From: Sanghuangporus weigelae
Taxonomy: Eukaryota > Basidiomycota > Agaricomycetes > Hymenochaetales > Hymenochaetaceae
Direction: 5' to 3'
Assembly (NCBI GenBank): GCA_033182465.1
Contig: CP137318.1
Span: 248,001 to 312,000, forward strand
Length of the DNA: 64,000 nucleotides
In this document: piece by piece, positions 43,613 through 64,000 of the stretch
Numbering within the stretch: position 1 is the first letter of the stretch
Layout: the number at the start of each line of letters is the position of its first letter
Program-made: the position numbers and the translations under genes
The notes under the pieces: generated by a model
What the model was told of the DNA's origin: nothing
The model's input: the letters and a program-made list of their open reading frames with translations, nothing else
Databases searched by the model: none

Positions 43613-44900
43613 GTGGTTTTATTATGTTTCACCTCACGTCTTGTCACGATCCTACCCCAGTCCCAGATCAGTCGTTTTGTACATGTTTTGGACCCCCATA
43701 GTCTATAAAACCCATCTAGATGTCGTAGTTTTCAGATAGTGAATACCAGAGATCTGTTCAGCGCACGCATCTTCTGTTCCGAAGCCTCTCAGACCGTCCC
43801 AACCGACTCTGTCATTCACAGAAAGCCGTAGTACCCACCTTGGGTGTCTCGTCTTCCTTGCCTAGACTAGTCCGGACGTCCTGGGGGTGACTCGGATACT
43901 CTCAGCTTGTCTTCTTTCTTCATTGACTCATCTCCGAGGTGATCAAGTCGCTGAAGTATTCACTTGGTTCACCGCAGTACATCTGGATTGGTCTCCCTAG
44001 ATGACCATTGAGTATCACATCTTGCCTACGTGTATTTGCTCCCCCTTTTCTTCCCTTTTTAGATAGGTTGCCATTGCTCGGTCACACGAGAACGGACCTA
44101 GACGCTCATTTACATCCCATCCCTCCGATAGTTCACACCGACCGTTCCAGCCGGAGGTATTCCAACTATCCACGGTTCCCACAGAGTAGGCCAGAGTCTC
44201 AGTCTGTCTCAGGGGAGTCTTCCGGATCACCCTTCTTTGTTTGGTTTCCCCGATTCGTTCTCACTCACTCCCTATAGGATCGAACGCCCTAGCCTACTAG
44301 GATCGCACCTACAGACCTAGTCCGATCATCCACCCACCCTATCAATCTTACAACGCATCTTTCAACACATCCACAATAAGTAAGCGTCAACACGGTGACG
44401 GTCGCATTCGCAGAGATGGTCATGATTGCAGTCGTGGTCGTGCATCTACGACACCTGTTACACCTAGGACATCTGTTGCTGGGATGCCTATTGCACCGCC
44501 TACTCCTGGTGGACCGTCGGGTTCTGGTAGACCTCCTTCCCCTCCTCCTCCAAGCAACAGGCGGGTGTCAAGAGCTGAATGCATCTTAGGTGTATGCGAT
44601 CCAGGCATCATCAGCATTCTGGACCCGCCCTGCTAGATCGCAATCGTCGAGATACGTATATGGCGGAGTTCGGAATTCTCCAGGGCTCACCTCACCGGTC
44701 TCTCCCTCATTACCGGATTATTCCCATCTTAGATGCATTGGCGACGTTGCTGGTCTCGCAAGCCTCTGGTGAGATCGTTGCAGTGGGCTACGTGAAAGGA
44801 TCCGCTCAAAACCTCGCATCAGGATCGATGCGATCAACAGACCTACACGATCAGCCTTCCAAACGTGACCAGTAACCAAGCCAGCTATCACAGGCCTAAG
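43613..44900 (+). mobile_element. Gypsy-like LTR remnant with gag fragment
   Basis: Continuation of the older LTR seen at 40.1-40.77 kb. It includes a TATA-like TCTATAAAACCC (about 43700) and ends in the region of 44340-44390. It is followed by a Pro-rich frame (RASTTPVTPRTSVAGMPIAPP, then PTPGGPSGSGRPPSPPPPSNR, about 44410-44580) similar in style to Ty3/Gypsy gag N-termini of mushrooms, soon stopped by TAG. The outer left edge could not be fixed and no TSD was found. Confidence 0.45.
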
Positions 44901-46302
44901 CGATCGAGTGGCCTAGGCAACAGTAACCCGTTACCACCCGAGCGCTAGAAGCAGTGAAGCGGATATGTAATCCCGCTAACAGCTAACACCGCCAATCGCC
45001 TACTACCGCGAACTACCACTCTAACGCCGCCGACCAAGCAACCAGAGCGACCTCAATCAAAAGAAGCGATCAAACTTCTTAGAAGTCCAGAAGCACAACT
45101 ACTAAAGCCTAAACGCTAAAAGGCTAAAGGCTAATAAGGTTTATAGAGACCTCACTGGCATTTCAGCACTGTCAAGTCTGTGCACGAGTTTACATGGTCC
45201 TTTATGAAGTATACTACATAGTATGCATGGCAACAGTTGGTACACGTGACTGTCACATCGAAACCGAGCGACACCTTCAAGATACAATGCATTCCAATCC
45301 ACCAAACCCAATAGTACCCAAGAAACGAGAGGAACTCACGATCACAACTCGAACCCCTTGAACTGCGAACCCAATAACTTGGAGAATGATTGGATGGTAT
45401 AGACCGGAGTTGCACACACCATGTCCAGCATCCACGATACAGGCAAACCTTTATTTACCAAGAGATGTGAACCTGGAGACCAAGCAATTACAACTCCTTA
45501 TACAATGAAGGATATGGCACTACATTTGAGATATACAATATGAAGGCAAAGCATGGCTAGTCACCAGAACCCAGCAGAACCCGCCAGCAGAACTTATGCA
45601 GTTCATGATATGCCTTGGACCATACTCTACACTGACCCGACACCTTAACACTGACATGCGAGTTATGCTTACCCTCGCTGGACCTCGAGATGAATTCCAC
45701 AGAATCACATACCAAGCAGCCTACATCGCTCCAAGAGCAAGGATGCCACTCAATGACAACAATGACATCATGATGGAGTACTGACAGTGGAGCATTCCAT
45801 ATCGAAGCACCACCTCTATTGTCTCAGTCAGCAACTCCACAGAATTCCGTCATAGTGGAAACGACCTTACAAAGATTGGAGCAAAGTGGAGCGAAGCGCA
45901 GCAGGATGACAAAGGGAAAGATGTAATGGTGGAGAAAAGTGGGGTAAAGTGGAGACAGGATGAGTAAGAAATAGGATGGAAAATGGAATATCTGGGAGCA
46001 TAAATAGCTGTAGGATTAGGCCCTCATTTCCCCATCTTTCGATCCTCTTAACACACTGGTGTAAAGCTTGCCCTACAGCGAGCTATTACTGTGTGCTTTG
46101 TACTATCACGCCTCTTGGAAATCCCAATCTGCTTTACTATCACCTCGTATCTGAAAGCATCCATACCTCGAACCGCGACTAGAAAGGCTAGTAAGGGACC
46201 ACATGGTATAGCCAGACGTGGGTAGATAAGATCACCTCTGCACAACACACTGCTGCTTAGGCAAAAGGATCAAACCGGTGTAACCCCAGGCCTACTCCCT
46301 AA
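44901..46302. other. repeat-like region, no gene recognised
   Basis: Only short frames. Bases 45880-46010 are purine-rich with repeated GTGGAG/AGTGGGG words, followed by a TATA-like CATAAATAG at about 46000. It could be another LTR remnant; ends and TSD were not found. Confidence 0.35.
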
Positions 46303-47430: not shown

Positions 47431-49396
47431 TGTAGCGCACTGGCTCCTCCTGTGCCAGTACACTCATACTATGGCTCCCTCTTACTGCAGATACCATATC
47501 CCAGCACTGCCGACACCTGAGAGTGTGAGGGCACACTCCTATTGCACTCGGGACATCATTTGAGCACGTATCCATTGATTCCAGCACACGTACTGTACTG
47601 CGGCGCCCTCCTATGACCCAAATCGATCCGCCGATGGCTCCCCGACACTCAGACAGGTCCGCCGACAGCTCCTACCCAGCACCAGGCACTATAGGACACA
47701 TCCCCCAGTGACTACATGCCGCCGATTTTATGATTTATCATACGTACAGCCGTGCGGCGACTCTGGATGCCTCCGAGTCGGCCCCCCTTGGCGCCGATCA
47801 ATGCGGCGGACACTCAGACATCCTCAGGTACCCTCGCCGACGCCTCCTACAGCTTACCAAGCAGTCCCCCATTGTCTAGGGAGCTATATATTGTCATATG
47901 TGCTTACATGCCTCATTACGATGTATCTGCCACCAGTCCGGCAGTCCCCCACAGCACTGCCGCTCCGGCCACTCATATTAGTCACTAGGGATCACCCACA
48001 CTCTGTATTGAGTGCCGCCGATGCATCGGACACCTCAGGGACATCGGCTGATGCGCCCTTTGTCTCATATACGCGATATCAGCCTCCGATCATCGGTTCC
48101 GAGGTTTCCCGACTTCCCCCTGACGCGGCGGCCCCCATTAGACCATGTATGGAAGGTAGGCATGTGGTACATCGGCGTGCCAAGCCACCGACTCGCGCCG
48201 CCAAGCCCAACTCCGCCGGCGCCTGTATTATTGCAGATACTCAATATTCCATGCTATTGGATGCCTCCCTCACGTTGCCGCTCTCAGATTTCACCTGGGC
48301 GCTCCGGCAGCGGCCCTTGGCGACCCAGATGACTCAGGAGATGTTGTCAGACAGTAGGATGTGTCGGCGACAGCAGTAGAGTATATATAGAGCTTATACT
48401 AGCTTGTAGACAAAAAGATTCCAAGCCTAGCAAGGATTCCAAGCCTAGCAAGGATTCCAAGAGCATGTACCAGACCGAGCGCCAGAGTTCGAGATATCCC
48501 TCACTCTGAGTCTCCCCTCATGTACTGAGCCTCCCCCTTGACTATATACTATCCTTGACATCTCCTCTTGTTTGACTCCACATTCTACTTGCCTTCGCCG
48601 CCTCCGGTACGCCTCTGCCGCTCTGACGTTCAGTGATCCGGCACCCCTCTATTCGACGTCGGCGACCCTTCGGCGACCCAGGCTTCTCATCAGACTCCCC
48701 TTCGGCGTCCTTTCCAGCCTTTCACTCCAGTTTATCCCATATATTGATCTTATACGGTCTTTTCCTTTCATCTATCGCGTTTACGCTACTGCGGCGGATT
48801 CCTGCGGCCTCCCCCTCAGTCCGGCACCCCTCTATTCGACGTCGGCGACCCTTCGGCGACCCAGGCTTCTCATCAGACTCCCCTTCGGCGTCCTTTCCAG
48901 CCTTTCACTCCAGTTTATCCCATATATTGATCTTATACGGTCTTTTCCTTTCATCTATCGCGTTTACGCTACTGCGGCGGATTCCTGCGGCCTCCCCCTC
49001 AGTCCGGCACCCCTCTATTCGACGTCGGCGGCCATCCGACGACCCAGGCATCCTATCAGACGACCCAGCGGCGCCTTCTCCAGCCACTCACTCCATTTTA
49101 TCCTTTATATTCATCTTATACACTTCATACCTTCCTGTGGCCGAGTTTATACCACGTCGGCAGCCCCCTGTGATCCCCCCTCTCAAGCGGCGGTCCTGTT
49201 ATCCTATTCCCTTTATCCAGCGGCATCCTTAGACCCATCCATTACGTCTCCGACGGTTCCTGGCACCTGCCGGGTAGTAGGTCTTTGAGAGTCTGATAGC
49301 GTCGGCATCCCATTTTTGGAGGTTCCTTCATACATTCAGCACCCTTAGTAGGACGGACATCTGTAGCACCTTCAGATATGACACCGCCGACCGACA
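47431..49396 (+). mobile_element. solo LTR A (1966 bp), 4-bp TSD CCGT
   Basis: Begins TGTAGCGCACTGG and ends CCGACCGACA; flanked by CCGT at 47427-47430 and 49397-49400. About 97-98% identical by eye to solo LTR B at 54260. It has a TATA-like GTATATATAGAG at about 48380 near its middle and internal 183-bp tandem repeats. No gag or pol sequence. Read as a solo LTR of a long-LTR retrotransposon; a terminal-repeat non-autonomous element is the alternative. Confidence 0.75.
48638..49186 (+). repeat. 183-bp tandem repeat inside solo LTR A
   Basis: Units start at 48638, 48821 and 49004 (each CCGGCACCCCTCTATTCGAC); the first two are almost identical, the third diverged. 183 bp is a multiple of three, which keeps a long but probably meaningless frame open. 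The same array occurs in LTR B from 55450. Confidence 0.85.
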
Positions 49397-52850: not shown

Positions 52851-54237
52851 ATGTCTTCCGCGATTGAAGTCGGCCCGCAGCCGCAAACTTCAGACATTCA
52901 TTTGGATACTTCGCTTGAAGCAGAACTCATCGGACTCATATTCTCTGCCATGTGAGTGCGTCCTTTCGTAAATTGTCCAATCTACCGAAGTAAACATCCT
53001 GTCGTTCACCAGGCTCTTTGGCATAATAAATGTTCAAGTCCTCACTTATTATCAAAGCTACGAACTGAGAGATGATCCTAAATTCTTGAAGTGGATGGTG
53101 AGCTTCTCCAATATCCTCACGTCACAGCTGCTTATACATGAGAATCGGCCTAGATCTCATTCGTGTGGTAAGATAGTGCCAGAATAACTCATTATCATCT
53201 CCCCAATGATACTGTCTCTAGGTTACTCAATGCCTTCCTCTTTGCTCTGATATCATACTATAATTATTCCACCTTCGTGGCTCACTTTACCGATGCGATG
53301 TTCATTGGACATGCTCCTTGGTGTTTGGGCGTGCATCATTCTTGGAGTTATACCTCTACTCTTATTCAGTGTTGACTTATTCACATTGATCAGATTTTTT
53401 CTGCTACTTCAGTAAGGATTGCATTTGTTCCATATGCTCTCGTAGCTATTTATACAGCTTTATTTCAGGAAATCAGTCTCATCACTATACGCCTGTACGC
53501 AATTTGGGTATTGCATCGTGCTGCATATGTTTGATTAACATCGCAGATTCTATACAAGGCGGATCTGGATCAGTACGTCAAATTCTTGTATCAACATAGA
53601 ATTGCCTATGACGTTGTCTTGTAGTGAGCGACCGAAATCTAGTTTTGACAAGTATAGCGGTTCGTGATCTAGTGGAACAGTTTTACACGTTATTCAATGA
53701 CCTTGCTAACGCAGATGGCGTTAAACTTGACCACATTCAGTAAGAGTTTGATCTCGCGCTTGTGGCTGAATGATCTTCTGACCCCATGCATCAGCTTTAA
53801 ACATTATTTTCTCGGCTAAGCTGTAAGTTTTCTTCAATCCAGTGTCTCGTCCATCTTTCTAACACAATGAATGGAAATCAGATTATCTACCAACTCAGTC
53901 TTCCACGTCGCGAAGTTCTCTGTACGTGTTCCATTATGCTAATAAGGTACAACATTTACTTACAATCACAAAGTGGTTTATGCTAGCAGGCAATGGAATT
54001 TCCGCTGTTGCCGATTTATGGAATGCGCTTCCGCTCTGCTATTTCCTGAGAAGGGGGAAATCCGGACGTCATAAGTGAGTTCTGCCTATTCGTTTACAAG
54101 GTAAACTGACGCGCCGGAACAGGACTGACACTATGGTTAATAAATTGATGATTTACATAGTCGGCACCGGGCTGCTGACAAGTATGGCTGCTCTGGCGTG
54201 CTTCATCACGGTTTGGGGTTCTACAAATGTTCTGTGT

Positions 54238-56345
54238 TTTTAAGATGTTGAGCTCACGGTGTAGCGCACTGGCTCCTCCTGTGCCAGTACACTCATACTA
54301 TGGCTCCCTCTTACTGCAGATACCATATCCCAGCACTGCCGACACCTGAGAGTGTGAGGGCACACTCCTATTGCACTCGGGACATCATTTGAGCACGTAT
54401 CCATTGATTCCAGCACACGTACTGTACTGCGGCGCCCTCCTATGACCCAAATCGATCCGCCGATGGCTCCCCGACACTCAGACAGGTCCGCCGACAGCTC
54501 CTACCCAGCACCAGGCACTATAGGACACATCCCTCAGTGACTACGTGCCGCCGATCTTATGATTTACCATACGTACAGCCGTGTGGCGACTCTGGATGCC
54601 TCCGAGTCGGCCCCCCTTGGCGCCGATCAATGCGGCGGACACTCAGACATCCTCAGGTACCCTCGCCGACGCCTCCTACAGCTTACCAAGCAGTCCCCCA
54701 TTGTCTAGGGAGCTATATATTGTCATATGTGCTTACATGCCTCATTACGATGTATCTGCCACCAGTCCGGCAGTCCCCCACAGCACTGCCGCTCCGGCCA
54801 CTCATATTAGTCACTAGGGATCGCCCACACTCTGTATTGAGTGCCGCCGATGCATCGGACACCTCAGGGACATCGGCTGATGCGCCCTTTGTCTCATATA
54901 CGCGATATCAGCCTCCAATCATCGGTTCCGATGTTTTTCGACGTCCCCCCGACGCGGCGGCCCCCCATTAGACCATGTATGGAAGGTAGGCATGTGGTAC
55001 ATCGGCGTGCCAAGCCACCGACTCGCGCCGCCAAGCCCAACTCCGCCGGCACCCGTGTTATTGCAGATACTCAATATTTCATGTGATTGGATGCCCCCCT
55101 CACGTTGCCGCTCTCAGATTTCACCTGGGCGCTCCGGCAGCAGCCCTTGGCAACCCAGATGACTCAGGAGATGTTGTCAGACAGTAGGATGTGTCGGCGA
55201 CAGCAGTAGAGTATATATAGAGCTTATACTAGCTTGTAGACGAAAGGATTCCAAGCCTAGCAAGGATTCCAAGAGCATATACCAGACCGAGCACCAGAGT
55301 TCGAGATATCCCTCACTCTGAGTCTCCCCTCATGTACTGAGCCTCCCCCTTGACTATATACTATCCTTGACATCTCCTCTTGTTTGACTCCACATTCTAC
55401 TTGCCTTCGCCGCCTCCGGTACGCCTCTGCCGCTCTGACGTTCAGTGATCCGGCGCCCCTCTATTCGACGTCGGCGACCCTTCGGCGACCCAGGCTTCTC
55501 ATCAGACTCCCCTTCGGCGTCCTTTCCAGCCTTTCACTCCAGTTTATCCCATATATTGATCTTATACGGTCTTTTCCTTTCATCTATCGCGTTTACGCTA
55601 CTGCGGCGGATTCCTGCGGCCTCCCCCTCAGTCCGGCACCCCTCTATTCGACGTCGGCGACCCTTCGGCGACCCAGGCTTCTCATCAGACTCCCCTTCGG
55701 CGTCCTTTCCAGCCTTTCACTCCAGTTTATCCCATATATTGATCTTATACGGTCTTTTCCTTTCATCTATCGCGTTTACGCTACTGCGGCGGATTCCTGC
55801 GGCCTCCCCCTCAGTCCGGCACCCCTCTATTCGACGTCGGCGGCCATCCGACGACCCAGGCATCCTATCAGACGACCCAGCGGCGCCTTCTCCAGCCACT
55901 CACTCCATTTTATCCTTTATATTCATCTTATACACTTCATACCTTCCTGTGCCCGAGTTTATACCACGTCGGCAGCCTCTTGTGATCCCTCCCTTTTGAG
56001 CGGCGGCCCTGTTATTCTATTCCCTTTATCCAGCGGCATCCTTAGACCCATCCATTACGTCTCCGACGGTTCCTGGCACCTGCCGGGTAGTAGGTCTTTG
56101 AGAGTCTGATAGCGTCGGCATCCCATTTTTGGAGGTTCCTTCATACATTCAGCACCCTTAGTAGGACGGACATCTGTAGCACCTTCAGATACGACACCGC
56201 CGACCGACAACGGTGCCTTCAATATGAGGGCATACGTACGGTAACGAGAGAACGTTCGTTCTTGTTATACATTGACCTTCCAGAGGTCTTATATACTACT
56301 GATACAGCACGTGCTAATGTTACATAATACGATTACATTCTAATA
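54238..56345 (-). repeat. 3' LTR of the Copia element, split by solo LTR B
   Basis: Pieces 54238-54259 (22 bp) and 56214-56345 (132 bp) together equal the 154-bp 5' LTR base for base by eye. Solo LTR B plus its TSD copy lies between them. Confidence 0.9.
54260..56209 (+). mobile_element. solo LTR B (1950 bp), 4-bp TSD ACGG
   Basis: TGTAGCGCACTGG...CCGACCGACA as in LTR A, flanked by ACGG at 54256-54259 and 56210-56213. Same orientation and structure as A (TATA-like word near 55208, 183-bp repeats from 55450). It lacks coding sequence and interrupts the Copia 3' LTR, so it is younger than the Copia insertion. Confidence 0.82.
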
Positions 56346-56354
56346 CTCCCCTTC
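56346..56354 (-). other. polypurine tract of the Copia element
   Basis: On the minus strand GAAGGGGAG immediately precedes the 3' LTR start (TATTAG). This is the expected plus-strand primer site for reverse transcription. Confidence 0.8.
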
Positions 56355-56384
56355 AATCTAATGATTTCTGAATGATTAGATTGT

Positions 56385-59300
56385 TTAATTGTCGACGAGT
56401 CCGATTAACGAATTTAAATGATTAAATTGTTTAGTGTTGAGCGCTTTTGTTAACGTGTCTGCACGTTGATTTGTAGTTGGTACATAATTAACTCTTATCG
56501 AATGATTTTCGATATAACAATGTACGAAGGCTCTTCGCCTATCTAAATGTTTTGTTCTAATATTGTGTGAAAATTCATCGATTTGAACATCTCTTATAGC
56601 CGCTTCGTTATCCGAATAAATTGTGATTAATCTATCACTTTCTTTTATGTTTAATTCTTCTATGAAATGTTTAATCCAAATAGCTTCTTTGGTAGCATGT
56701 TGTAATGCTTGAATTTCTGCGTCATATACTGATGCAGGTACCAAATCTTGTCTTTTTGATGACCACGAAAATGATGAATTTCTTATGGTAAATATATATC
56801 CATTAATAGCTTTATAGCCTTCTGTTACCGCACCGTCTGAATCGCAATAACCATCTATTATTAGTGGATATTTGCCTCCAAGTTTTAACCATTTGTTTTT
56901 GGTTGTGTTTAAATATGATAAAGCATATCTAGCGACATTAACATGTGTTTCATCAGGATTATGTAAATGTCTTGCTAATTGTCCTGCAACATAAGCTACA
57001 TCGGGCCTAGTTGCATCCGCAGCGTATCGGAGTGATCCGACTAAACTCATATATAACGATTTAGTTTCTTGTGAACTTGTATTGTCGCTTGATTTTAATC
57101 TGCTTCCTGGCGCCATTGGAGTTTGGCGTAATCTTTCAGTTTCAATATTAAATCTAAGTGTTATGTCTTCGATATATTTCTTTTGTCTTAATAGTATTGT
57201 TCGATCGTGACGGTTTCTCTTCATTTCGATTCCCAATAACCAATGGATCTCACCATTGTCTGTTAGATTAACGAATTTTCGTATCTTCGTGACTAAATCA
57301 TTTTTTATATTGATGTTTTGACTTATTATAGTTATATCATCCACATGCATGAATGTTATTAAATTTGGTTTGAATATCGATTTATCATAGAATACGGCAT
57401 AATCTTCAGCAGATCTTGTTAATCCTGCTGCATTAAGTATATCATTTATTTTCTTATACCATCTTCTTCCTGATTGTTTTAATCCGTATAATGCCTTTTT
57501 TAATCTTAATGCTTGACCAGGTTTAATGTCTTTACAAAAATTTCCTGGTGGTGGACGCATGTAGATGACTTCATCTTGATTTAATTCTCCGTATAAATAA
57601 GCGGATTTTACATCAATTTGATGTATTTCGTAATCGTTTGCCGCTGCCCAATGTAATAATAACCTAGCTGTTGATAACTTCGCGACGGGTGCAAAAGTGT
57701 CTTGCGAGTAATAATCTATTCCATCAATTTGACTAAAACCTTGGGCTACTAATCGTGCTTTATATTTTTCGATTGTGGAATCTGCTTTGTATTTTATGTT
57801 ATAGACAAATCTGCATCCCACTATGTTTGTATTCGGTGGTGGGTATTCATATATCCATGTGTTATGTTCTACTAATGAGTCTATTTCATTTTTCATGGCT
57901 TGTCGCCATTTGTCATGATCAGGTCTTCTTAATGCGTCTAAGTATGTTATTGGTATTTTCATACTTTTATTTATTTCATTATTAAATTCTGTTAAGAATA
58001 TAGAAATATCTTCTTGTTTTTCGATCGCTAGACCTGCTTCTCTTTTCTTACGAGATGGTTCACGATGTCTTTGTAATCTTTCTTTTAATGGTGTTTGATC
58101 GTCGATATCATTATTATTATTATCAGGTTGCGTTATTTTCTCCCCTTGAGTTCGAGTTTCGTTAGAAATGATGAACTCGACATTTCTTTCTGTTGATACT
58201 TTAGAGTCGTGATAGACATATATGCCATCTTTTGTGTTTGAGTCATATCCGACAAATTTCCCTAGTGCACCTTTATTTTGTAATTTGTTTGTATTTTCTT
58301 TTCTGTATATAACGTCGTGTCCAAATTCGTGGAGACCATTTAATATATAATTTGCATTAAAGCGTGCTTTGAATGGTGTTTCAAAGTTTATGGCACTTTT
58401 TGGTGATCTATTAGTAATGAATAACGCATGCTGTGCAGCATAATACCATAATCGTTGTGGTAAATTTTTTGCTGTTAACATAGATCTAACATGATTAAAG
58501 ATAGTTTGATGCATTCTCTCGGCAACTCCGTTTTGCTGTGGCGTGTCATGAACAGTTAATTTTCTGATAGTTCCTTGTGAATCAAGGTAATCAGTAAAGT
58601 CTTTAGATAAAAATACAGCATCGTTATCCGATTGAAGGATTTTAATTATTACGCCATTTTGTAATTTTAATCGAGTTGTATATTTAATATATTCCGTGTA
58701 TGCATCACTTTTGTGTTTTAATGGTAGCATTTCTGACCACCTAGTTGAATCATCAACTAATGTAAGTAAATATGATATCGAATTTAGCGCTAGTGTTGGT
58801 GCTGGTCCCCAAATATCCATATGTATTAAATCACCAAAGTTATTTGCTAGCGGTGATTTTCTTTGATGTGGTATTATTGTTCGTGATATATTTGCTCTTG
58901 TGCAATCGATACAATTTTTATTTGTGTTGTCGTCTATAATTTTCTCAGTTATTATTTCAGGGTGGTCTTTAATCATTTTTCGTATGTAACCATAGCTGAT
59001 ATGGCCTAATTTCTTATGTAATTCATCGATTGTTAATGTCGCTATAATGTTTGGTTTCATTTCTGGATCATTATACGTGTGTACTTCGTACAATTTTTTA
59101 TATGATCGTTGTATAGTTCCGAGATGTCTATTATTTTTCATTACGATGCAAATGTCTTGTTCGGTAATAAATTTAAATCCTTGATCACACATTTCAGCTA
59201 ATGATATTAGCGTGCATTTAAATTTTGGCGAATAATAAATATTTGATAGTTTTATTATAGTGCAATTTTCGGGTGTTACAAAATTGTTATTCACTTTAAA

Positions 59301-60485
59301 TAATAAAATTTTCATGTCGCCTTTTTGAGAAACGGTGATGGCGGTGTCGTCGGCGGTTCGCACTATAATTGGTTCGCAATTAGTAATGTTCGTTAAAATT
59401 TTTTGATAAGGAGTAACATGAATGCTAGCTCCTGAATCTAATAATGCCATTGTATGACTTACTGATTGGACGTATTCCATAGGCACGTCATCAGGTATTG
59501 CTTTTTCGATAATATTGATTTCTTTTTCGCGTCTCTTTCCTTCGCGTTTGGACATTATTGCTGCGTATTCATCCATTTGTTCCTTCGTTGGGGGATTAAG
59601 GTGCATTGGATGATAACCGTGTTCTTCAATAAAATCTTGATTCGCAAGTTCATTCGCAAAAGGCGAGATTGGTGCGTCGTGATCAATAAGGTCGAAAAGG
59701 GATTTTCCTTCGAGAAGGACGCCATCGTCGTTGGGGTCCTGTTGCATTGTCATTTGTTCCCAAAAATCATCGACAAAATTTGTGCCGGATGATGATTCGG
59801 CGGCAAGTTGGGTAGCGATCGTCTGTTGACGTTTCACGGGTCGTTCGAAAGGGTTCGTTGTGTTCGTCCATTCTCGGGTTTGTTTTAATTTCGGGTTCTC
59901 GTCATCTGAAAGATCGAGAGTCGTCGGTGACGGTGTGTTGACTGTGAAGTTGGATTCTGACGGGAGAACGGGTGTCTTTGAGCGCATACTGGCCATGTTG
60001 ACTTCTTCGATACGAGTAGTGTTAGATGGTGGTAGCGCGTAAGAAGGGATTATTGCCTGAGCGGCCGCATTCGGATTTGTATAATTCGTCGACGCTTGCG
60101 TAATCAAAGAAGCAGTCGCAGTAGAATTGGGACGAGATTGACGTATCTTTAACGTTTGTGGTGTCGGCGGAGCACGGCAGTCTTTCGACATGTGTCCGAA
60201 CTTTTTGCAATTGAAGCATTGCGGTGCTCCGGTGACTGCATGCGTGTGAGGCGTAAAATGTTTATAGGTAAAGTTTGATCGGCCTCTACCACGTCCTCGA
60301 AAATAGTTTCGGTTATCCCAAGGACCTTTCCAGAATTGCGTAGTAGATCCGGGATAATTTGGGTTCGCATGCTGCAGGTAACTCGTGTTTCTATTCATTC
60401 CTTGGTTAAAATGTGATCGATAAGAAAAGATTCGTCCTCGTGATGATGTTGCTCTCCCCCGAAAGGTACTTGGGGTGGCTGACGG
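56385..60485 (-). CDS. Copia Pol (protease, integrase, reverse transcriptase, RNase H)
   Basis: A single minus-strand frame of about 1366 codons, stop TAA 56385-56387; its apparent ATG (60500) lies within solo LTR C. In order: zinc knuckle CFNCKKFGHMSKDC (residues ~95-108), aspartic protease LLDSGASIHV, integrase HHCC (HKKLGHIS...CIDC) and the D,D,E set (HMDIWGP, LQSDND, NGVAERMH), reverse transcriptase with HVDD in place of YVDD, and RNase H (DSDGA, DAEIQAL, SDNEAAI). No internal stop or frameshift is seen, so the enzyme part looks intact. It makes the element's cDNA and inserts it. Gag lies upstream in the same frame once solo LTR C is discounted, so Gag-Pol was one polyprotein. Confidence 0.93.
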   Translation of the reverse strand, partial: PSATPSTFRGRATSSRGRIFSYRSHFNQGMNRNTSYLQHANPNYPGSTTQFWKGPWDNRNYFRGRGRGRSNFTYKHFTPHTHAVTGAPQCFNCKKFGHMSKDCRAPPTPQTLKIRQSRPNSTATASLITQASTNYTNPNAAAQAIIPSYALPPSNTTRIEEVNMASMRSKTPVLPSESNFTVNTPSPTTLDLSDDENPKLKQTREWTNTTNPFERPVKRQQTIATQLAAESSSGTNFVDDFWEQMTMQQDPNDDGVLLEGKSLFDLIDHDAPISPFANELANQDFIEEHGYHPMHLNPPTKEQMDEYAAIMSKREGKRREKEINIIEKAIPDDVPMEYVQSVSHTMALLDSGASIHVTPYQKILTNITNCEPIIVRTADDTAITVSQKGDMKILLFKVNNNFVTPENCTIIKLSNIYYSPKFKCTLISLAEMCDQGFKFITEQDICIVMKNNRHLGTIQRSYKKLYEVHTYNDPEMKPNIIATLTIDELHKKLGHISYGYIRKMIKDHPEIITEKIIDDNTNKNCIDCTRANISRTIIPHQRKSPLANNFGDLIHMDIWGPAPTLALNSISYLLTLVDDSTRWSEMLPLKHKSDAYTEYIKYTTRLKLQNGVIIKILQSDNDAVFLSKDFTDYLDSQGTIRKLTVHDTPQQNGVAERMHQTIFNHVRSMLTAKNLPQRLWYYAAQHALFITNRSPKSAINFETPFKARFNANYILNGLHEFGHDVIYRKENTNKLQNKGALGKFVGYDSNTKDGIYVYHDSKVSTERNVEFIISNETRTQGEKITQPDNNNNDIDDQTPLKERLQRHREPSRKKREAGLAIEKQEDISIFLTEFNNEINKSMKIPITYLDALRRPDHDKWRQAMKNEIDSLVEHNTWIYEYPPPNTNIVGCRFVYNIKYKADSTIEKYKARLVAQGFSQIDGIDYYSQDTFAPVAKLSTARLLLHWAAANDYEIHQIDVKSAYLYGELNQDEVIYMRPPPGNFCKDIKPGQALRLKKALYGLKQSGRRWYKKINDILNAAGLTRSAEDYAVFYDKSIFKPNLITFMHVDDITIISQNINIKNDLVTKIRKFVNLTDNGEIHWLLGIEMKRNRHDRTILLRQKKYIEDITLRFNIETERLRQTPMAPGSRLKSSDNTSSQETKSLYMSLVGSLRYAADATRPDVAYVAGQLARHLHNPDETHVNVARYALSYLNTTKNKWLKLGGKYPLIIDGYCDSDGAVTEGYKAINGYIFTIRNSSFSWSSKRQDLVPASVYDAEIQALQHATKEAIWIKHFIEELNIKESDRLITIYSDNEAAIRDVQIDEFSHNIRTKHLDRRRAFVHCYIENHSIRVNYVPTTNQRADTLTKALNTKQFNHLNSLIGLVDN

Positions 60486-61850
60486 TGTAGTGCGCCGCAC
60501 TTGCCTGTACCGGTACGTCGGTACAGGCCCCTCAGTACTCTGTACAGTATACCATCGTGCGCCGACCGCTACACCTCCGCCGCTCCTTAAGACCCTCCAA
60601 ACCGCCGCTCTTTGATCCGCGGCTCAACCAATACGTCCGCCGCCTCCCGTCCTTCGAAGACTTCCCAAACCGAGTACGCTTGGCCAGCCGCACTTTCTGA
60701 TACGCGGGCGCCTGGAACGTTGCAGCGGATGTATCGGCTACTGCGGCGGAAGGATATCGAACCGTATAGCCGATGGAATATTCGTCGGCTCCTGTTGATT
60801 GGCTTATCCGACGTCGGGTAGTGGTTTTACAAGGTCCCAGGTACCACGTTTCATGTTCATACTATGCCGCCTTGTGCGCCGAGTCCGATTGTCGGACGCG
60901 GCGGCCACTCGCGTATTCCCCTTTTAGTATTATTGCCTCCCCTGACGTTTCATATTCGTGTGGTGCGACCACTTAGCGATCCGAGCGCGCCCGATGATGA
61001 TGCGCCGCGCCAATCACCGCCAGCCCGATCAGCGCGCGTCCGTGTCTTGGCAGCTTCGCGGCGCGCCCCGATCTTCGGGTCCGCACCGATTGTGCGCCTG
61101 TGACGCGCCGTCACTGTCGCCGCCTCTGTGACGCTCTTCCCCAGCATTCCCCAGTATATATAGACCTCATGTATGTAGTGTTCAGAAGCAGTAGTTCAGA
61201 ATAGATCTCAGTGCACTCCTCTCGTCTCTATTAGCCCTTTTGCTCTCTATCGCCTCCGCCGAAGGTCGTGTGCCGACACAAGACGCCGCCCCCGTTTAAG
61301 GGAATAACAGGGGCACGTGCTCACTCGCCACTGCGCAAGTGATCGGCAGAGCTATCCCCCGTCGTGGGAAACGACAGCGCCATCGCCCTCTTGACAATCG
61401 GCGACACCGTCGCTCTCCTGGTAATCGGCGACGCCGTCGCTCTCCTGGTAATCAGCGACACCGTCGCTCTCCTGGCAATCGGCGATACCGTCGCTCTACC
61501 AGTAATCGCCGCCGCTCGCAGGACTCGACAGCGCCGTCGCTCTACTGCTTATTCGCGACGCCGACATCTTGACTCGTCGGCGGCTCTGTCCCGTACATTA
61601 TCGGCGGCGTCCCCTTTATACGCGGATCATACCATAGCCCTTACGATTGAGCCCCCCCACGACTGAGCGCGCATCCCGATCGGCAGCAGTGCTTCCGGGT
61701 CAAATTGTCCGCCACGGCACCAAGCTGTCCAGGAGGTCTAGCCACGAGTTGGATCCCTTCTTACCTCTCCGATCTTTGACACCGCCGACGCCTCTCTGTG
61801 GTCGAACGCCGTCGCCTTCGCCGCTGCTTAAGAGGGTCTGATAGTCTACA
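60486..61850 (+). mobile_element. solo LTR C (1365 bp), 4-bp TSD ACGG
   Basis: Begins TGTAGTGCGCCGC and ends GATAGTCTACA; flanked by ACGG at 60482-60485 and 61851-61854. It has a TATA-like GTATATATAGACC near 61154. It shares the TGTAG...ACA ends, GC-rich CGCCG-rich style, TATA word and TSD length with A and B but is otherwise diverged, so a related subfamily. It splits Copia gag from pol. Confidence 0.78.
61396..61503 (+). repeat. 27-bp minisatellite inside solo LTR C
   Basis: Four units starting AATCGGCGACACCGTCGC at 61396, 61423, 61450 and 61477, with a few substitutions; a fragment follows at 61504. Confidence 0.8.
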
Positions 61851-61854
61851 ACGG

Positions 61855-63135
61855 TTGCTTCTGCGCCTGGTAATTTGCAAAAGCCGCACGCAGTTTGGCG
61901 ATTAAGCCGTCAGGGGTTACGGTTCTGCGTGGTTGATTGGCGGTAAGGGTTGAGTTATAAAAATCGATCCTCGCTTGTAATTGTTGGAACACGTAGCCAT
62001 ACTGCGGTGGCGTAGAAGTTTGTATCGCAGATAAGTACGTATCGTCTGTCGGCTTCTTATTGTGTTGTGTGAGTAAACCATAGATATTTTGTAACTTATC
62101 TAAGGTTTTATCAAATTCGGAAACGTGTACGCGTATATTGAAAAGCTTCGATACTTCGACTGCGGAAGTAACCGTGGTTCGAACGTCGAACCTCGTTTTC
62201 AGGTGGTTTATAAATAGAATAACGCGGTTGATACCGATCATATTTGAAAGAATTGAATCAGGTACTTTCGATTGGAACACGGAGATGAGTTGGTTGTTCG
62301 TGGTCTGGCCATCGGTGTCATTAGCTGGCGGGCTCGAAACGAGATGATCTTCAAGTCCTAGTGCGAGCATGGTTGCTTCGACGCGAATAAGCCACATTTT
62401 GAAATTCAATCCGTTGTGCTGAAGTTTCTCGATGCCATCAAAGGCCTTAAACAGGTCCCTGAGGTCTAAGCCAGCGATGTGAAAAACTCGAGTAGCCATT
62501 GATGAAGATGATGAGCTAGATGGATTTGAAGGGCTTGGAGGTGGTGTATGTGGACTTTGGGATGAAGTTCGAGGTGCACTTATATGCATTGGGTGTGAAC
62601 TAGCTCTAGTTTGCTCACTATTATTTGAATTGTTATCATTTTCATTTTCTTCATCTTCTTGTTCCGTTCGGGGTTCCCGAGTTTGCGTTGATTCCGTGTC
62701 CTGAGGTATTATCTCCATTTCTTGTGGCGAATTTGTTAATGTAGTACCCGAAGGTCCGCTCACAGGTTGTCTAGGTAATTCATCTCTTATTACTTCGCGA
62801 TAAGTTTCCTCATCGTCTGAATGTGGTATATGTTCATAAAGGTATCTATTTCTTAATTCTGTAACGGCGATTGTATTCATTTTTATATTTCTCACGATCC
62901 GTAATGGCCGTTGTTCATAGAAACGCGGAGGGGCATAATGGTAAAATTTTGAGCATGACATTGAATATTCTATTCGTCGTCTCTGTGTGCTATACCTCGT
63001 TGTAACCTGTGTCGCCGCATCTCTCTTTCCTTCCACCTGTGTCCAGTCTGGTCGGTTGTGAGGATATTGAGCAGCCGGACTTTTGCCAATCGTTCGGTAT
63101 GTAGGACGCGCGGGTCGAGTTTGAATTTCGTCCAT
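61855..63135 (-). CDS. Copia Gag
   Basis: Minus-strand frame from ATG 63135 (MDEIQTRPARPTYR) to the solo LTR C border; the stop used now (61846) lies in the LTR sequence. Residues ~210-420 (FDGIEKLQHNGLNFKMWLIR, RVILFINHLKTRFDVRTTV, YLSAIQTSTPPQYGYVF) have the helical UBN2/retrotran-gag character of Copia capsids. A Ser/Asn-rich acidic linker precedes. The zinc knuckle lies beyond the insertion in the pol frame. A second frame (63305-62970) overlaps the start and begins at an ATG inside the primer-binding site. Confidence 0.82.
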
Positions 63136-63305
63136 GTTGTTACGATTTCGACGCGCGTTGGACTATGTTTAATAACGTCGGTGTCGAAGATGTTGTAGTC
63201 GTATTTCCAAAAATCGACGAACTTGTATGTTCTGGTGTATACGTGCGTCGTATCGACGAACGTCAAATCCGAATATCTTTTGTTCGCAGGGTTATCAAGG
63301 CTCAT
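62970..63305 (-). other. overlapping upstream frame at Copia gag start
   Basis: Open frame MSLDNPANKRYSDLTF... of 111 codons in a different frame from Gag, starting at the first ATG after the LTR (within the PBS). It could be the true Gag N-terminus joined by frameshift, an upstream ORF, or chance. No family recognised. Confidence 0.3.
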
Positions 63306-63309
63306 AACC
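63299..63309 (-). other. primer-binding site, tRNA-iMet half-molecule type
   Basis: GGTTATGAGCC starts immediately after the 5' LTR. It is complementary to the anticodon stem-loop of fungal initiator tRNA-Met (GGCTCATAACC), the internal priming mode known for Drosophila copia. Confidence 0.7.
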
Positions 63310-63463
63310 TTTTAAGATGTTGAGCTCACGGTGCCTTCAATATGAGGGCATACGTACGGTAACGAGAGAACGTTCGTTCTTGTTATACATTGACCTTCCA
63401 GAGGTCTTATATACTACTGATACAGCACGTGCTAATGTTACATAATACGATTACATTCTAATA
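63310..63463 (-). repeat. 5' LTR of the Copia element (154 bp)
   Basis: On the minus strand TATTAGAATG...CATCTTAAAA. It includes a TATA-like GTATATAAGA (63405-63414). The right flank TGTGT is the target duplication. Confidence 0.9.
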
Positions 63464-64000
63464 TGTGTGATAAAGCATACTAATAAGTTCCGAAATGAAG
63501 TACGCCACTATGCCAGACAATATGATCTACGTTGCGATTTATTCCTGCGTTTCACCACGTACGTTTCCATACATTTCTTGAGCATACGATCGAATGACCT
63601 GAGTTGACATCCTTTTAGTTTATTTCAATGCTATGCTCGCTTCAGTCAACTCTCGAGAATGGTTGCGTAAGAAATGGGCTGACAAAGGTACAAGCCTGAA
63701 TATCGAAACATGGCACGTCGCTACACCACGACCTCGACCTGATTCGGGCAGCACAATCTGTTCTGAGACAACGGAACTTGAGGATGAGCTGGCGACGAAA
63801 AGAAATCGGTGCGAAGACTTGAGGGTAAGCTCAGTCTCGCCACTATTTAGCGCAGTTGTCCCTTACTTGCTTGAGTGAACAGTTATCGCCTGTGACGACC
63901 AAAACAGAAACGAAAGATATCACTGAAGAATTTGAGGCCAGACTGAATCGATCCGTCTATGATTTACCAGTCTGACAAACCTGGAAAATCATAACTTGCT

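Follow-up and report, generated by a model that had tools for sequence, protein, structure and literature searches.

In a 64,000-nucleotide stretch of the Sanghuangporus weigelae genome, hereafter the window (C1:248001-312000 in a 33.87-Mb assembly of 13 contigs), a gene encoding a DUF6534 (PF20152) protein carries a Ty1/copia-type long terminal repeat (LTR) retrotransposon inside its thirteenth intron. The element lies antisense to the gene and is itself interrupted by two later insertions. It splits the gene, leaving 13 exons upstream and three downstream (Table 1). The structure of the locus and the order of insertion can be read from the target-site duplications (TSDs) and uninterrupted relatives described below, and the consequence for the host gene is weighed thereafter.

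The host gene and its paralogue

The host gene was modelled by hand against a neighbouring paralogue (C1:312545-314479, 367 codons), which begins 570 bases past the host stop codon. The model extends over positions 52851-63975 of the forward strand and comprises 16 exons and 350 codons with an unbroken frame. The 16-exon layout is common to both genes, and their 15 introns were paired one to one. Several host exons are very short (14, 18, 25, 26, 26 and 28 nt), and for this reason an upstream exon had seemed unclear in frame in the first-pass annotation of this DNA. A broken upstream frame was considered and rejected: once the short exons were modelled by hand against the paralogue, at junctions differing from those given by an automatic gene finder, the region resolved into short in-frame exons. 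The 14-nt coding exon occupies the same place in the two genes (window 53154-53167 and C1:312900-312913), and a simple automatic gene finder overlooked it.

The spliced host protein scored 75.9 bits against PF20152 and covered profile positions 1-79 of 80, with a curated cut-off of 28.2, which places it in the DUF6534 family. The unspliced genomic frame, which runs into the intron, reached 38.3 bits over positions 1-56 only. Host and paralogue proteins are identical at 223 of 345 aligned residues. The genome contains at least 66 PF20152 matches, which, together with the short introns, would suit a mushroom-forming basidiomycete; when the stretch preceding the insertion (53700-54215) was searched against the genome, the sole other copy was the paralogue, at 70% identity. 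One study proposes, from machine predictions, that many DUF6534 proteins form a new class of fungal G-protein-coupled receptors (PMC12842992). The host protein resembles these predicted seven-helix receptors in matching the profile, and the host allele differs in its 9.2-kb intronic element.

Table 1. Coordinates of the host gene, the Copia element and the nested inserts in the window.
Feature	Position	Strand	Remarks
DUF6534 gene, exons 1-5	52851-52951, 53013-53097, 53154-53167 (14 nt), 53222-53330, 53394-53411	+	hand model
DUF6534 gene, exons 6-10	53469-53494, 53547-53572, 53625-53659, 53715-53739, 53795-53822	+	hand model
DUF6534 gene, exons 11-13	53882-53921, 53974-54074, 54123-54210	+	exons 1-13 = 232 codons
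Intron 13, 5' piece	54211-54237	+	27 nt; donor GTTTGG; ends in TSD TGTGT (54233-54237)
Ty1/copia element	54238-63463	-	9,226 bp as it stands; antisense to host gene
3' LTR, split	54238-54259 + 56210-56345	-	matches the other LTR fully
Nested insert 1	54260-56209	+	1,950 bp; TGTAG...CGACA; internal 183-bp tandem repeats; TSD ACGG (54256-54259 / 56210-56213)
Polypurine tract	56346-56354	-	GAAGGGGAG (minus strand); adjoins 3' LTR, likewise in other copies
pol open reading frame	56385-60500	-	1371 aa as it stands; zinc knuckle, Pol_BBD, integrase core, SH3-like, RVT_2 in order
Nested insert 2	60486-61850	+	1,365 bp; TGTAG...CTACA; TSD ACGG (60482-60485 / 61851-61854)
gag open reading frame	61846-63135	-	429 aa as it stands; separated from pol by nested insert 2
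Putative primer-binding site	63296-63309	-	GGTTATGAGCCTTG (minus strand); adjoins 5' LTR
5' LTR	63310-63463	-	154 bp; TATTAG...TTAAAA on element strand
Second TSD; intron 13, 3' piece	63464-63468; 63469-63500	+	TGTGT; TACTAAT from 63478; acceptor AAG
DUF6534 gene, exons 14-16	63501-63558, 63619-63824, 63883-63975	+	includes stop; hand model

The insertion site

The LTR element is bracketed by the duplication TGTGT (54233-54237 and 63464-63468). Removal of the element and one TGTGT copy joins 54211-54237 to 63469-63500 and leaves a 59-nt GT...AG intron with the donor GTTTGG, the branch-point-like motif TACTAAT and the acceptor AAG, whose flanking exons meet in frame as LACFIT-YATMPDN. Paralogue DNA aligns across the joined insertion point, where the paralogue has an intron of 52 nt (GTATGA, TATGCTAAT, AAAG) with exon borders at C1:313959/314012. 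As it stands, intron 13 spans 54211-63500 and measures 9,290 nt, an enlargement of about 157-fold.

To place this intron within the family, 45 DUF6534 genes were compared, namely the 30 best-scoring loci, 12 picked from the lower list, the host gene, the paralogue and a third gene at C1:319 kb, with intron presence called by eye from three-frame translations. A phase-0 intron is present at the insertion site in 16 of them, including host and paralogue, absent from 26 and unclear in three (L067, L073 and L075). The position, phase and signals of this GT-AG intron are thus kept in the relatives that have it; in five of the 16 (L018, L019, L024, L027 and L029) and in L066, the acceptor precedes the marker peptide by one to three codons. 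Judged from these translations, the intron is a feature of a sub-group and not of the whole family.

These results bear out most of what the first-pass annotation had claimed for the site. It had placed a Copia element inside a 59-nt intron of a DUF6534 gene, with exons joining as LACFIT-YATMPDN, and both points agree with the duplications, the joined flanks and the paralogue alignment. Its further claims, that the host coding sequence is intact and that expression depends on splicing the enlarged intron, are supported by the gene model that host and paralogue have in common and by the phase-0 intron of the 16 family members. Its exon borders (54222/63496) need correction, to 54210/54211 and 63500/63501.

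Introns make up 44% of the empty host gene. An element inserting at random would strike one almost every second time, so the intronic location is unremarkable and calls for no selective explanation; as to orientation, antisense is simply one of the two available.

Structure of the Copia element

By its domain order, paired LTRs and short TSD, the element is a Ty1/copia-type LTR retrotransposon. The pol open reading frame (ORF) contains RVT_2 (PF07727, E 5.2e-52, residues 880-1130), with an integrase core upstream of it (rve, residues 557-646; 25.3 bits, below the cut-off of 32.6), and the succession of zinc knuckle, integrase and RVT_2 is that of Ty1/copia elements. No Pfam match was obtained for the gag ORF. 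The likeness to Ty1/copia extends to the polypurine tract, the two LTRs and the 5-bp TSD. The sequence adjoining the 5' LTR may be a primer-binding site for an initiator-tRNA fragment. The two LTRs are identical over all 154 bases. The window element differs from Ty1/copia in that its LTRs end in TA...AA instead of TG...CA, and in being split by the two later inserts; TG...CA ends are usual for LTRs and were not treated as defining.

The element had been described as complete, a description that the two nested inserts overturn. Insert 1 splits the left LTR, within a stretch that is unbroken in the three LTRs compared, one of which is the element's own right LTR. Insert 2 splits gag-pol, leaving the ORFs 61846-63135 and 56385-60500 on its two sides; a natural copy (L040) is open across the corresponding point. 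An uninterrupted relative at C7:1352724-1358626 measures 5,903 bp, which is also the length obtained when both inserts and their 4-bp duplications are subtracted from the 9,226 bp of the window element. The window copy therefore lacks the uninterrupted LTRs and gag-pol of an intact, mobile Copia copy.

Probable consequences for splicing of the host gene

The donor of the enlarged intron, already noted as weak in the first-pass annotation, was scored against the other 29 donors of host and paralogue. At -3.07, GTTTGG is the lowest of the 30, the next being -0.93. The other host introns measure 48-63 nt, and the 29 other introns of the two genes taken together 48-69 nt. In short-intron fungi, splice sites are thought to be paired across the intron, an arrangement that long introns disturb. 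Reading through the donor adds VWGSTNVLCF and then meets a stop, ten residues after residue 232, and a retained intron would remove the last 118 residues, which comprise the final hydrophobic stretch (about residues 240-261 in a simple hydropathy scan) and the tail.

With good confidence, we interpret the locus as a Copia insertion, antisense in the 59-nt intron 13 of a DUF6534 gene and followed by two nested inserts, that most likely leaves the full-length product strongly reduced. A Ty1/copia element, 5.9 kb long in an uninterrupted relative, entered the intron antisense and duplicated TGTGT; two further mobile elements then entered the Copia and brought the intron to its present length. Every modelled coding exon is still there, as are the donor, acceptor and branch-point-like motif of the original intron. 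Full-length protein would be made only if the whole intron were removed using the weak donor. Because a 9,290-nt intron stands among introns of 48-69 nt and its donor is weak, removal is probably inefficient and the output of full-length protein from this allele is probably reduced. Intron-retaining transcripts would encode the truncated product described above, with ten added residues in place of the last 118.

Several observations weigh against this interpretation. At the matching intron, locus L066 (C1:371 kb) has an identical GTTTGG, so the hexamer may be functional, and a T at donor position 3 occurs in the same intron of L065, L070 and the third gene at C1:319 kb. Run on the joined gene, the automatic gene finder picked GTATGG in exon 13 and bypassed GTTTGG; the case for GTTTGG even in the empty gene thus comes from the paralogues, and the host model was itself completed by hand with the paralogue in view. 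None of the four AGs located 35-110 nt from the donor, inside the insert, is preceded by a branch-like motif, so that no ready cryptic acceptor stands out; of the 19 AGs lying 35-400 nt from the donor, one, which would define a 203-nt intron, has such a motif. The ratio of nonsynonymous to synonymous divergence between host and paralogue (dN 0.228, dS 0.936, dN/dS 0.244, bootstrap 0.17-0.33) speaks for the gene model but reflects the long history of both genes and not the time since the insertion.

Some of these points would favour a nearly silent insertion, in which the 9.29-kb intron is spliced accurately. The splice signals are still present, the element and the gene lie in opposite orientations, the AGs nearest the donor lack a branch-like motif and the coding exons show no frame break. 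We nevertheless regard such an outcome as unlikely in view of the bottom rank of the donor and the size of the intron relative to the 29 others; the intact exons weigh less than they might, as the LTRs are identical and exon decay may have had too little time to show. It is somewhat more doubtful still that the fungus removes an intron of this length, with three nested mobile elements and a weak donor, accurately enough to keep a receptor-like protein. Should the intron be spliced, the gene would provide a ready-made case for gauging the reach of splice-site pairing in a fungus with short introns. The gene could also have been unused before the insertion, with the landing in an intron not selected at all. 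The large size of the family and a neighbouring paralogue that could cover the role speak for such disuse, as does the high intron share of the gene, but 16 in-frame exons and the dN/dS of 0.24 argue for a long-lasting function, and we consider it improbable, though not remotely so. An error in the gene model that would put TGTGT in an exon has in its favour the poor donor and its being passed over by the automatic gene finder. This reading is very improbable, and we reject it: translation past the donor meets a stop after ten codons, an intron occupies that place in the paralogue and in 14 further family members, and the Pfam profile is filled by the joined protein.

Eukaryotic introns commonly harbour mobile elements, and the Copia insertion favoured here is of an ordinary kind, although it can be reconstructed cleanly. 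The locus is useful for its combination of an empty-site structure readable from the neighbouring paralogue, a marginal donor and the extent of intron growth.

The Copia family in the genome

A search of the genome with the Copia LTR gave 34 matches, fragments included. Matching 5-bp TSDs and the same LTR ends were found at all ten other LTR pairs compared; nine pairs of equal length show 0-2 mismatches between their LTRs, and the tenth differs by one base in length. Among 29 LTRs read, 27 have the ends TATTAG...TTAAAA and two TATTAG...TTGAAA, so that all begin with TA and end with AA, with the TSDs outside. Of the 28 other LTRs read, 27 equal that of the window element in length, and each of these departs from it at 4-9 of 154 positions. 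Given LTRs that are divergent yet mutually identical, the window element may represent either a separate sub-lineage or a case of LTR conversion.

Two further Copia LTR pairs are widely spaced: C6:1782248-1812720, about 30 kb, with the matching TSD GATAT, and C2:3098651-3118276, about 20 kb, with the matching TSD CAAAG. Both seem to hold large nested insertions too.

The nested-insert families and their target sites

Each nested insert is a member of a high-copy family with TGTAG...ACA ends, with at least 55 matches for family 1 and at least 78 for family 2, drawn from 40 scored candidates per family. To the two copies in the Copia element we added 29 others, taken from high-scoring matches that reach, or nearly reach, both query ends, giving 31 copies (three of family 1 and 28 of family 2). 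Identical 4-bp flanks were found in 29 of the 31, and all 29 are centred on CG; the remaining two have the unequal flanks ACGG/GCGC and GCGC/GTGC. The identical-flank copies were counted by script for family 2 (26 copies) and read by eye for family 1 (three copies). CCGT also flanks both ends of another window copy of family 1 (47431-49396), which brings the total to 30 of 32 copies with NCGN. For nine more copies of family 1, the left flank alone was read, and it is NCGN in eight and ATGC in one.

CG accounts for 5.6% of window positions. When family 2 empty sites were rebuilt from their flanks, at least 10 of 27 fell inside family 1, family 2 or a Gypsy repeat (window 44792-46077); part of the target sites are thus GC-rich repeats, and the chance level must lie above 5.6%, although in our judgement not near 100%. 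The two families may be elements with an integrase that requires CpG in the middle of the 4-bp target site, a proposal that is independent of the intron insertion and concerns the more unusual of the two observations. Among the papers listed in literature searches, none showed a fungal element with such a CpG-centred target, and we make no claim of novelty.

The nearest resemblance seen is to Ginger1 DNA transposons, which have terminal inverted repeats of 40-270 bp, TSDs of CCGG or CCGT/ACGG and TGTNR ends, and occur in four animal species (PMC2836005). Measured against that description, the nested inserts are alike in their TGTNR ends and CpG-containing 4-bp TSD. They differ in that the inverted match of their ends is exact over only 3 bases (insert 1) and 5 bases (insert 2), with 23 of the first 60 bases identical in an ungapped comparison of the inverted ends of each, which falls short of a 40-270-bp inverted repeat. 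They also accept NCGN broadly, including GCGC, ACGC and CCGA, beyond the CCGG or CCGT/ACGG of Ginger1. No full-length partner was found for either family, and no transposase was assigned to the nested inserts.

Solo LTRs of some Gypsy element would account for the inserts equally well. An origin as LTRs of the abundant Gypsy with a 1534-aa ORF (dozens of matches) was considered and rejected: in one array, the LTR-like repeat beside this ORF is a different sequence. The LTR-like repeat at window 44792-46077 is 95-96% alike to copies beside that ORF. Copies of this Gypsy-associated repeat (L135; L136-L155) have variable left ends and, in all ten pairs viewed, a shared extension past the right end (gcgagctatt...), which indicates that the repeat does not end as a simple LTR would and that TSDs of its own cannot be judged. 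At C7:2434267-2435608, a nested family 2 copy (TSD CCGC) separates the reverse transcriptase match of a Gypsy element of the 1798-aa type from its integrase match.

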